NCBI GenBank assembly: GCA_003165335.1
Contig: PLTD01000175.1
Coordinates: 1-64,000 of the forward strand
From: Rhodospirillales bacterium
Lineage (GTDB): Bacteria > Pseudomonadota > Alphaproteobacteria > BOG-932 > Roseiterribacteraceae
DNA: 64,000 nt
Reading direction: 5' to 3'
Part shown: in pieces, positions 18,752 through 22,849 of the stretch
Numbering within the stretch: the first letter of the stretch is position 1
Layout of the letters: every line of letters begins with the position of its first letter
Notes under the pieces: generated by a model
Told to the model about the DNA's origin: nothing
Seen by the model: the letters and a program-made list of their open reading frames with translations, nothing else
The model's database searches: none
Made by a program: the position numbers and the translations under genes

Positions 18752-19378
18752 CTAGCGGACGCGGCCGATTTTGTCATCCGTGATCTGTACGTGATTTGGC
18801 TCTGCGGCAACACGGTTTAGCCAATTCTGGATGGCCGGGAAGGGCGACAAGTCAAATCCACCCTCGTGCGCCACATGGGTATAGGCATACAGAGCCATGT
18901 CGGCGATCGAATAGGCCGTCCCGACGAACCATTCGCGATCGGCCAGATGCTGTTCCATTACGTTCAGCGCGGCAACTCCGTCTTCGCGCTTAATCGGTAG
19001 GGCCACTCGGCGATACTCGGTCATTTCGACCTTATGAGTAATCCAATAGCGGACGGTCGCAATATTGGGTTCGTGGCTATATTGCTCGAAAAAAAGCCAC
19101 TGCATCGTCTGGGCGCGTTGGAGCCGGTCGGCGGGCAGGAAATGAGTGTCCTCCGCCAGGTAGCATAGAATGGCGTTGGATTCTGCCAAGAACCGGCTGG
19201 GCGTCAGTTCGAGCACCGGGATTTTGCCATTTGGGTTCTTTTTCAGAAATTCCACGGTGCGCGTTTCGCCGCGATCTGTGTCATAGGCGATTCGCTCAAA
19301 AGGAATACCCAACTGGCTTAAGATCAGCCTCACCTTATAGGCGTTCCCTGAGGCGAGATTGTCGTGCAGCCGATACAT
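18752..19378 (-). CDS. Glutathione S-transferase family protein
   Basis: A 208-residue cytosolic GST. The thioredoxin-fold N-terminal domain has MYRLHDNLASGNAYKVRLIL with Ser/Asn in the catalytic-loop position, the cis-Pro segment NGKIPVLEL, and the glutathione gamma-Glu-binding ESNAILCYLA. The helical C-terminal domain contains YSIADMALYAY. The start at 19378 is chosen because the 13 upstream codons do not fit the GST fold. It is probably co-transcribed with the FAH-family gene, and so may be an isomerase or glutathione-dependent step in the same catabolic route; this is inference. Confidence 0.88.
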   Translation of the reverse strand: MYRLHDNLASGNAYKVRLILSQLGIPFERIAYDTDRGETRTVEFLKKNPNGKIPVLELTPSRFLAESNAILCYLAEDTHFLPADRLQRAQTMQWLFFEQYSHEPNIATVRYWITHKVEMTEYRRVALPIKREDGVAALNVMEQHLADREWFVGTAYSIADMALYAYTHVAHEGGFDLSPFPAIQNWLNRVAAEPNHVQITDDKIGRVR

Positions 19379-19530
19379 CTGAATGCTCCAGCGAGTTGTC
19401 ACCGGATTGAACTCCATGGAATTCGATCATTCAATGCAGATGTTGGTCTGCGCAATGCGCGCTCAACGCGGGCCGCTTGCCGAGCAATAGCCTATCTGCC
19501 ACTGTGCTTTGTCAGTTCGGAGCCAACTCA

Positions 19531-20892
19531 ATGTCCGTAAGCCTCTCTTCGCGCAGGCGTTTCCTTGGTCAGGCCGCGGCAGTGGGGCTTGTTTCATCAT
19601 GGCCGGCTTGGGCGCAAGATCAACCCGCTAAGGCACCGGTGACGCCGCCGCCGCCCTCGCCTGACAGTGGTCCCCCGCCGGATGCGCCTTCACCTCCTGT
19701 GGCCGAAGCACCGGTCGAACCTCCACCTCCACCCCCTCCAGACCCAACCAGTGTGACGCTGCCGCTTGCCGGCGGCCCGAAGGACCGGCCGATTACTAAG
19801 GATTTTCCTCAAAAGGGGATGATGGTCCTGCAGTCGACCAGGCCGCCTGTTCTGGAAACGCCATTCGATGTTTTCGACAAAGGTCCGATTACGGCGAACA
19901 GCCAGTTTTATGTCGACTGGCAGACCGGTTCTCCGCCCGCGATGGTTAATACTGCCGCCTTCAGGCTCGCGGTACGCGGAAATGTCTCCCAAACGCTCTC
20001 TCTACCGCTCAGCGAGATCATGAGCGCTTTCCCGAAAGTTGAGATCGTTGCCGTCGATCAGGAGGCAGGCAATTCGCGTGGTCTATTTCAGCCAAGGGTT
20101 CCCGGCGTGCAGTGGGGGCACGGGGCCATAGGCAACGCCAAGTGGACCGGCGTGAGGTTGAGCGACATTTTAATGCGGACAGGGGTTAAGCCCGGCACGA
20201 TCCAAGTGCGCTTTAGCGGAATGGATCAGCCCACCCCTGGTGCGCCCAAGTTGATGATGTCGCTCGATCTCGCCCATGCTCGGGATGGCGAAGTGATTGT
20301 TGCTTACGCGATGAACGGCGAACCTTTGCCTCTGCTAAACGGATTTCCGCTACGCCTCATCGTCCCCGGCTGGTATGCGCCCTACTGGGTCAAGATGCTG
20401 AATGATATTGAGTTGCTAACCACGCCGGACGACAATTATTGGACCGCAACGGCCTATCGTGTGCCGGCGACGCTCCATGCTGACGTCGCTCCTGGGGCGT
20501 CTGGCTATAAGACTGCACCACTCTCTCGGATGGTGCCGCGCGCATTTATTACCAATATTATGCCAGGTCAGAAACTGGCTCCAGATACATTGACCTTGGC
20601 GCGTGGCCTCGCTTTCGGCGGTGATAACGGCGTCGCTCGTGTCGATTTCAGCTTTGACGGCGGTCGAAGCTGGTCACCTGCAAAGTTGGGAAAGGATCTT
20701 GGCAAATATAGTTTTCGTCAGTGGGAGACACAATTCAAACCTGCTGCTGGTGCACTCACGCTGATGGCGCGCTGTACCAATACCAGCGGCGTGACACAGG
20801 CTGAAACACCCAACTGGAATCCCGGGGGCTTCGCGCGAGACGCGATAGAAGCGCTCGACGTAACGGTTGGAGGCGATGATGCGTCCCAATAA
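19531..20892 (+). CDS. Sulfite-oxidase-like molybdopterin protein lacking the Mo-binding cysteine
   Basis: A 453-residue periplasmic protein of the sulfite oxidase/SorA family. It has a Tat signal (SSRRRFLGQAAAVG), then an unusual proline-rich linker of about 45 residues (PPPPSPDSGPPPDAP, later a run of seven Pro). The Moco domain follows (NSRGLFQPRVPG, NGEPLPLLNGFPLRL, VPGWYAPYWVKML) and a C-terminal Ig-like Mo-co dimerisation domain (VDFSFDGGRSWSPAKL). The cysteine that binds molybdenum should lie in a QCSGNSRG-type motif, but the sequence reads DQEAGNSRG, with Glu at residue 178. GGAG nine bases before the ATG at 19531 fixes the start. The next gene, a cytochrome c, overlaps it, as in sorAB. 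Catalysis of sulfite oxidation is doubtful. Confidence 0.88.
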   Translation: MSVSLSSRRRFLGQAAAVGLVSSWPAWAQDQPAKAPVTPPPPSPDSGPPPDAPSPPVAEAPVEPPPPPPPDPTSVTLPLAGGPKDRPITKDFPQKGMMVLQSTRPPVLETPFDVFDKGPITANSQFYVDWQTGSPPAMVNTAAFRLAVRGNVSQTLSLPLSEIMSAFPKVEIVAVDQEAGNSRGLFQPRVPGVQWGHGAIGNAKWTGVRLSDILMRTGVKPGTIQVRFSGMDQPTPGAPKLMMSLDLAHARDGEVIVAYAMNGEPLPLLNGFPLRLIVPGWYAPYWVKMLNDIELLTTPDDNYWTATAYRVPATLHADVAPGASGYKTAPLSRMVPRAFITNIMPGQKLAPDTLTLARGLAFGGDNGVARVDFSFDGGRSWSPAKLGKDLGKYSFRQWETQFKPAAGALTLMARCTNTSGVTQAETPNWNPGGFARDAIEALDVTVGGDDASQ

Positions 20893-21259
20893 GCTGAATA
20901 CTCGACTAGCCGTAGTCGCATTGGCTGTTGCCGCTGCCTTCGTGCTGTTTTCCCAATCGGCAATGGCCAAGAAAAGGGCTCTGCCGGCGCCCGCATTGTT
21001 GTCACAGACGGTCGAGTTGCCGGCCGGCGACGATGTCTTTCCCGACCGGCCTGGCGCGGAGACGGCCGACCGAAATTGCCTCTCATGCCATTCGGTCGAT
21101 ATGGTTCTGAACCAGCCGGCACTGCCCAGGGAAACTTGGGCTGGGGAGATCGAAAAAATGCGGAGCGTTTATAAGGCTGCCGTCGATCCCGGAGATATCG
21201 ATGCGATCTTGGATTATCTGACGGCGATCAGGGGTGAAAGCCGTCGCAGTTGGCGGTGA
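20879..21259 (+). CDS. Monohaem c-type cytochrome, SorB-like
   Basis: A 126-residue exported cytochrome: signal peptide ([21 protein letters not shown]), then one CxxCH haem site (NCLSCHSVD). A Met ligand may be supplied by the EKMRSVYK segment, and LDYLTAIRG ends the domain. The start overlaps the last 14 bases of the molybdoprotein, with GGAGG five bases before the ATG at 20879, so translation is likely coupled. In sorAB pairs the cytochrome takes electrons from the molybdenum subunit. That the pair is kept although the molybdenum Cys is gone suggests the partner still has a role. Confidence 0.88.
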
Positions 21260-21274
21260 CCATTTTGCTCGGGA

Positions 21275-22849
21275 TCAGTGCCGGAAGTGCCTGATCCCGG
21301 TGAAGACCATCGCTAGCCCACGTTCGTCTGCGGCGGCAATGACTTCGGCATCGCGCATCGAGCCGCCGGGCTGAATAATCGCTGTGGCCCCGGCGTCAGC
21401 CGCCGCGATCATGCCGTCGGCAAAGGGGAAAAAGGCATCCGACGCAACGACCGAACCGTTGGTCAGCGGTGCAGCCAGTTTGGCGGCGGCCGCAGCTTCG
21501 CCTGCTTTCCATGCCGCGATGCGGCTTGAGTCGACGCGGCTCATCTGACCGGCGCCGATACCGACTGTAGCGCCGTCCTTGGCATAGACAATCGCATTAG
21601 ACTTTACGTGCTTGGCGACGCGGAACGCGAACAGCATATCTGCTAGTTCTGCATTGGTCGGCGCCCGTTTGGTAACAACTTTGAGCGACTGAAGTGTGAT
21701 ACGGCCTGTGTCGCGCGACTGCAGTAGGAAGCCGCCGGCGATTGCCTTGACAATCAGTCCGGGCTGCGCGGGGTCGGGCAGGGTTTCGGTCGCCAGAACG
21801 CGCAGATTCTTCTTGGTGGCGAGCACAGCCTGCGCCTCGGCGGAGATCGACGGCGCGACGATCACCTCGGCGAACAGCTTGGCGATTTCCTCGGCGGTTT
21901 CGGCGTCAAGTTCCTGGTTCACAGCGATGATGCCGCCGAACGCGCTGACCGGGTCGCATGCTAGCGCTCGAGCATAGGCCGCGCCGATGGACATCCCCTC
22001 TGCAACGCCGCAGGGGTTGGCGTGTTTGATGATGGCGACGGCCGGCCGCTCGAACTCGGCGACTAGCTCCAATGCCGCGTCGGCGTCGGCCAGATTGTTG
22101 TAGCTGAGCTCCTTGCCCTGAAGCTGTCGGGCGGTGGCGACGCCGGGGCGGCGACTGCCGTCACGATAGAGGGCCGCCTCCTGGTGCGGGTTTTCGCCAT
22201 AGCGCATGCGCTGCTGCAGCACGCCGGCAAGTGCGAAACGTTCGGGCATGGTTTCGCCCTGCTGAACGGCAAACCAGGCTGAGATCGCTGTGTCATAGGC
22301 CGCGGTGCGGGCGAAAGCCTTTGCGGCCAGACGGCGCCGTGTCGCTAGGGTGGTTTGGCCTCGATGCAGCACAAGTTCTGCCATCACAGTTTCGTAATCG
22401 GCCGATTCGACAACGACAGTCACGAAATCATGGTTCTTGGCAGCCGAACGAATCATCGCCGGCCCACCAATATCGATGTTCTCTACGCAATCCTCGAACG
22501 GTTTGCCCGCCGCAACTGTTGCCTCGAAGGGGTAAAGATTAACCACAAGCAGGTCGATCGGCGGAATATCGTGGTCGCGCAGCGCCTGGGCATGATCGTC
22601 ACGGCGCGCGAGCAGGCCACCGTGGATACGGGGGTGGAGGGTTTTAACCCGACCGTCCATCATCTCAGGGAAACCGGTATGGGCTGACACCTCGGTAACT
22701 TCGATGCCGGCTTCTTGGAGTGCGCGAAAGGTGCCGCCGGTCGACAGAAGTTCGACATTTTGCTCGCGCAGGGCACGGGCGAAGGGGATAAGGCCTGTTT
22801 TGTCCGAGACGGACAGTAGGGCGCGGGTTATCGAAACCGTATCGATCAT
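21275..22849 (-). CDS. purH: Bifunctional AICAR transformylase / IMP cyclohydrolase
   Basis: The last two steps of de novo purine synthesis: formyl transfer from 10-formyl-THF to AICAR, then ring closure to IMP. The 524 residues are normal length. The IMP cyclohydrolase domain starts with [11 protein letters not shown] and [12 protein letters not shown]; the AICAR transformylase domain has the KHANPCGVA catalytic Lys-His segment near residue 270. The C terminus ends [11 protein letters not shown]. It is upstream of the heparinase-like gene's end on the same strand (13-base gap), an arrangement common in Sphingomonadales, so one transcript from rpe to purH is likely. Confidence 0.98.

Follow-up and report, generated by a model that had tools for sequence, protein, structure and literature searches.

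Can a SorA-like protein that carries glutamate in place of the molybdenum-ligand cysteine still act as a sulfite dehydrogenase, has it gained another metal site or function, or has its gene begun to decay? The question is raised by a gene at 19531..20892 (+) in the window, by which we mean the whole stretch of 64,000 nucleotides that was analyzed, from a genome referred to here as G000. The Mo-ligand cysteine counts as an unvarying feature of both sulfite oxidases and assimilatory nitrate reductases, and a natural lineage without it offers a ready test of what the thiolate does, be it in cofactor binding, in folding, in export, or in catalysis.

The locus encodes a SorA-like protein and a SorB-like cytochrome

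The sorA-like gene is in frame from end to end and specifies a product of 453 residues, predicted to be a Tat-exported protein of the SUOX fold. Pfam places a molybdopterin-binding domain (PF00174, 4.5e-48) and a dimerization domain (PF03404, 7e-5) in the one protein, and its best solved relative is SorA of Starkeya novella (PDB 2blf, E 4e-98). With the NCBIfam models for SorAB (NF052245/NF052246), the SorA equivalog score was 454.6 bits for the window protein and 505.7 bits for its ortholog in a second genome of the same genus (G002, ortholog at L086:1501-2871), both below the cut-off of 600; because Cys-bearing alphaproteobacterial relatives also miss this cut-off (550.5 and 564.4 bits), the low scores are weak evidence. 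An identity as MsrP/YedY was ruled out by an NCBIfam MsrP score of 26.4 bits against a cut-off of 207.

A Tat-type signal (SRRRFLG...AWA, residues 1 to 28, 19531..19614 (+)), kept in the G002 ortholog, is followed by a Pro-rich linker at residues 29 to 73 (19615..19749 (+), 49% Pro). The earlier note had singled out a linker of about 45 residues after the signal as unusual, and comparison bears this out: the linker is present in the G002 ortholog, is absent from ordinary SorA, and is thus a trait of the two Cys-less proteins, whose N-terminal regions measure 82 to 85 residues versus 43 to 50 in those canonical sequences whose start is plausible. The linker may hold the protein at a distance from the membrane or from a partner. 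Its sequence is poorly conserved between the two proteins (19615-19749 in the window and the N terminus of L086:1501-2871). The Mo-co dimerization domain, recognized by Pfam and in the sequence, spans residues 341 to 430 (20551..20820 (+)) and holds the only cysteine of the protein, Cys415.

A sorB-like cytochrome c gene lies at 20876..21259 (+), matches the NCBIfam SorB model at 1.1e-20, and carries a CLSCH heme motif at 21077-21091; its score of 73.5 bits falls below the cut-off of 93, as does that of an ordinary relative (83.7 bits). The sorA-like and sorB-like frames overlap by 14 to 17 bases (window 20876-20892), and sequence and domain matches agree with the earlier description of the Tat signal, the dimerization domain, and the overlapping cytochrome c gene as intact and in frame. 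The overlap appears in G002 as well. MoeA-type genes were found in both G000 and G002, which makes a supply of Moco plausible.

The gene order FAH, glutathione S-transferase (GST, divergent), sorA-like, sorB-like, and a convergent gene that is probably purH, by our assumption, is common to G000 and G002. The GST gene (18752..19417 (-)) is 80% identical and the presumed purH gene (21275..22849 (-)) 93% identical between the two genomes, each in the same place. Conserved neighbors were considered as a clue to function and rejected, as FAH and purH were matched only at the locus of the Cys-less clade, and GST and SDR elsewhere gave distant matches only; FAH, purH, GST, and SDR look like chromosomal background.

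Glutamate occupies the molybdenum-ligand site

Glu178 (GAG, 20062..20064 (+)), in the motif DQE178AGNSRG, was aligned onto Cys104, the Mo ligand of Starkeya SorA (2blf), with no gaps nearby. This alignment, the GAG codon, and the presence of Cys in relatives confirm the claim that the Mo-binding Cys is replaced by Glu. The refuting alternative, in which the Mo-binding Cys lies elsewhere in the protein, was also checked; a search of the window protein for another pocket Cys found none, the single Cys being residue 415 of the dimerization domain.

PMC10574614 reports the Cys to be without exception among the sulfite oxidase and nitrate reductase sequences that had then been compared. In a collection of 84,980 genomes, each of the 80 closest genome-contig loci had Cys at the Mo-ligand site, as did all 33 canonical rows of the alignment. 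The scan of the collection looked for exact matches to 8-residue peptides taken from the query and is blind to the G002 ortholog, so the clade may have further members. A DNA pattern for Asp-Gln-(Ala/Asp/Glu)-Ala-Gly-Asn-Ser-Arg-Gly matched only G000 and G002 among 385 genomes of the class, and a wider non-Cys pattern matched only G000 and two chance sites among 399 genomes of the phylum. Patterns that allow any residue, run on two alphaproteobacterial orders, returned Cys in 7 of 7 matches and, in the second set, 22 Cys and 3 non-Cys matches; all 29 real SorA motifs carry Cys. Candidate Cys-less sites were rejected in G739 (a stop inside the match), in G741 (no similarity to SorA), and in G844, G963, and G1036 (surrounding sequence without similarity to SorA). 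Plasmid relatives were all below 60% identity to the window protein. A description of a natural Cys-less family member was not found in the open-access literature.

Loss of the cysteine is shared by two species

The syntenic ortholog in G002 is about 67 to 68% identical to the window protein over its full length, Pro-rich linker included, and has Ala (GCT) at the Cys site. In the tree the two Cys-less proteins form one clade (support 100/100, on a long stem of 0.4 changes per column), a clade defined by only two sequences. Because the syntenic ortholog likewise lacks the Cys, the loss, judged from these sequences, is a lineage trait seen in two species and not a base error. To the question raised in the earlier note, whether the Glu is shared by a clade, the answer is divided: loss of the Cys is shared with the G002 ortholog, but the Glu itself is not. 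With Ala in the sister protein, a carboxylate Mo ligand is not a common theme, and the idea of Glu as a new metal ligand finds no support as a conserved feature.

Other catalytic residues are replaced while cofactor anchors are kept

The earlier note took the rest of the Moco pocket to be intact, which did not hold. At the sites of SorA Arg55 and His57 the window protein has Asp129 (GAC, 19915..19917 (+)) and Gln131 (CAG, 19921..19923 (+)), where the G002 ortholog has Ser and a retained His. The equivalent of Arg109, Arg183 (20077..20079 (+)), is conserved in both, and that of Tyr236, Tyr309 (20455..20457 (+)), is retained in the window protein and replaced by Asp in G002. Neither pocket is fully stripped, as the Tyr236 equivalent stays in the window protein and that of His57 in G002. 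Across 91 sites that are near-invariant in Cys-bearing relatives, the window protein differs at 12, including three of five catalytic positions (p 0.015), and the G002 ortholog at 6, also including three of the five (p 0.0016), by an enrichment test that is post hoc, having been devised after the data were seen. Ordinary SorA relatives differ at 0 to 3 of these sites, with the exception of a single Bradyrhizobium betae protein (L031) that differs at 7.

In chicken sulfite oxidase, the cofactor phosphate is held by His283, Arg288, and Lys301 (PMC5856855), which map by alignment to Asn270, Arg275, and Lys288 of the window protein. These three residues are the same in the two Cys-less species and throughout the 33 canonical rows; the alignment shows the whole anchor region (Asn270, Arg275, and Trp286-Val287-Lys288; 20338..20394 (+)) to be conserved. 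Conservation of the anchors could reflect structure alone.

The two-species lineage probably consists of SorA pseudoenzymes

At catalytic sites changed in both species the replacements are not the same, which points to loss and not to new conserved chemistry; a new ligand, if conserved, would be expected to be constant, and Glu in one species with Ala in the other makes a pseudoenzyme account the best supported. We consider it probable that these proteins form a two-species lineage of SorA pseudoenzymes for sulfite oxidation that keep the fold, the cofactor pocket, and the cytochrome. The suggestion of a changed metal site or new function stands in part, in that the Cys is truly replaced and selection is maintained, but the pattern fits lost sulfite chemistry with a retained fold better than a remodeled Mo site.

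Under the pseudoenzyme account, the locus would encode a periplasmic heterodimer derived from SorAB whose molybdenum subunit has turned pseudoenzyme for sulfite oxidation. The lineage has lost the catalytic Arg as well as the Mo-ligand Cys, together with His in the window species and Tyr in G002, while the Tat signal, the SUOX-family domains, the phosphate anchors, the dimerization domain, and the overlapping heme c partner are retained under purifying selection. The protein may still leave the cytoplasm carrying molybdopterin or Moco, with no protein thiolate on the Mo, and stay attached to the cytochrome. In that case it would serve the SorB-like cytochrome as a structural, cofactor-binding, or electron-relay partner, or at best retain some faint and altered redox activity, and would not oxidize sulfite at a normal rate. 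The protein clearly descends from SorA, but at the Mo ligand and the catalytic residues it departs from the features that define SorA, and to list it among the sulfite dehydrogenases would be a mistake. It is possibly the first pseudoenzyme in the sulfite oxidase family, and it carries a warning for annotation, in that a high-scoring SorA homolog need not oxidize sulfite, which bears on claims of sulfur oxidation from metagenomes.

An active enzyme with a thiolate-free Mo site, in which the metal would be held by the dithiolene alone or by Glu178 and a different oxo-transfer or redox reaction would be coupled to the cytochrome, accords with purifying selection, with the kept anchors and Arg183, and with the kept overlapping heme partner. 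A carboxylate ligand of Mo is also known in another family, as Asp in NarG, according to PMC9370002, where a C207S variant is discussed as well. We nevertheless regard such an enzyme as unlikely, as the ligand differs between species and the other catalytic residues have changed differently in each. NarG, of the DMSO reductase family, resembles the window protein as a natural Mo enzyme with a carboxylate in place of a Cys ligand, but it is nonhomologous, with a different fold and a bis-MGD cofactor, and the acid of the window protein is absent from its sister. Variants of SUOX with Cys changed to Ser or Ala are very poor enzymes, which also counts against catalysis without the thiolate. The chicken sulfite oxidase mutants C185S and C185A (PDB 3hbg, 3hbp, and 3hbq) share the fold and lack the same residue, and since they crystallized, the thiolate ligand is dispensable for the fold; they are laboratory mutants changed at the named residue alone, however, whereas the window protein is natural. 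The proposal of a natural, selected SUOX-fold protein that would bind molybdopterin or Mo without a protein thiolate (with Glu or water as ligand) and carry out a cytochrome c-coupled, non-sulfite reaction seems unlikely.

Both genes remain under purifying selection

For the sorA-like gene, dN/dS between G000 and G002 was about 0.09, compared with 0.11 for the neighboring GST gene and 0.04 for a partial purH, rough values given that synonymous sites are near saturation (dS about 2.6). Differences at codon positions 1, 2, and 3 amounted to 24%, 17%, and 59%. The earlier statement that the gene is not decayed is upheld by this ratio, which indicates purifying selection and argues against a decaying pseudogene. 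The sorA-like and sorB-like products diverge faster than their neighbors (67% and 52% identity versus 80 to 93%), and this faster divergence combined with a low dN/dS fits changed constraint without decay.

An early pseudogene, at a locus that has lost its function and in which decay is pending, could account for divergence of both genes beyond that of the flanking ones and for the disappearance of several otherwise invariant residues. It appears improbable, as both genes are open at full length in two species despite the high dS, the excess of third-position over second-position differences accompanies the low dN/dS, and the signal peptide and anchors are intact, as is the CxxCH motif of the sorB-like gene, which is open and about 51 to 52% identical between G000 and G002.

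Comparison with Starkeya SorAB

The predicted fold of the window protein matches SorA (Foldseek E 4e-42; E 7e-42 and 44% identity to 2blf). Residues 127 to 133 and 179 to 199 were modeled below pLDDT 50, and a canonical paralog modeled at the same depth was somewhat better in the pocket loops yet weak too; with these loops of low confidence and the control weak at the same loop, pocket geometry is unreadable from the model. The window protein shares with Starkeya SorAB its domain order, Tat signal, overlapping or adjacent sorB, anchor residues, and Arg109 equivalent, with 44% identity in the fold alignment. It differs in Cys104 (Glu; Ala in the sister), Arg55 (Asp; Ser in the sister), and His57 (Gln), the sister differs in Tyr236 (Asp), and the window protein has about 35 extra N-terminal residues as the Pro-rich linker. 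Deposited mutant structures exist at matching positions, namely, R55M, H57A, and Y236F of SorA, C185S, C185A, and R138Q of chicken sulfite oxidase, and R78K/Q of SorT.

An ordinary active sulfite dehydrogenase that would tolerate loss of the Cys is consistent with the predicted alignment to an active SorA and with the gene being the sole SorA-like one in G000, where three other PF00174 matches are short frames unmatched by the SorA query. This seems very improbable, as the Mo ligand and the equivalents of Arg55 and His57 are all gone, the Cys is described as invariant (PMC10574614), and G002 retains a separate canonical, Cys-bearing SorAB elsewhere, whose SorA falls in another part of the tree. 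A sequencing, assembly, or contamination artifact, to which a draft genome of 265 contigs with a contamination estimate of 4.5% lends some color, is refuted in substance, as turning GAG into a Cys codon (TGC/TGT) would take three base changes, so that no single base error accounts for Glu178, and the independent G002 genome carries a syntenic ortholog that also lacks the Cys.

Other SorA relatives

A SorA relative of Bradyrhizobium betae (L031:4911-6152) has likewise lost the Arg55 equivalent (Ser) and is changed at six other near-invariant sites; it differs from the Cys-less pair in retaining the Mo-ligand Cys, the His, and the Tyr, and the tree does not place it as their sister. It may represent a second lineage with an altered SorA. 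Two genomes of the same family as the window genome (G003 and G004, loci L087 and L088) hold only a distant SorA of about 41% identity with the motif C-x-C-SGNRRG, so the gene of the Cys-less pair may not descend from the family ancestor. At L087 the frame is open for about 500 codons ahead of the SorA part.
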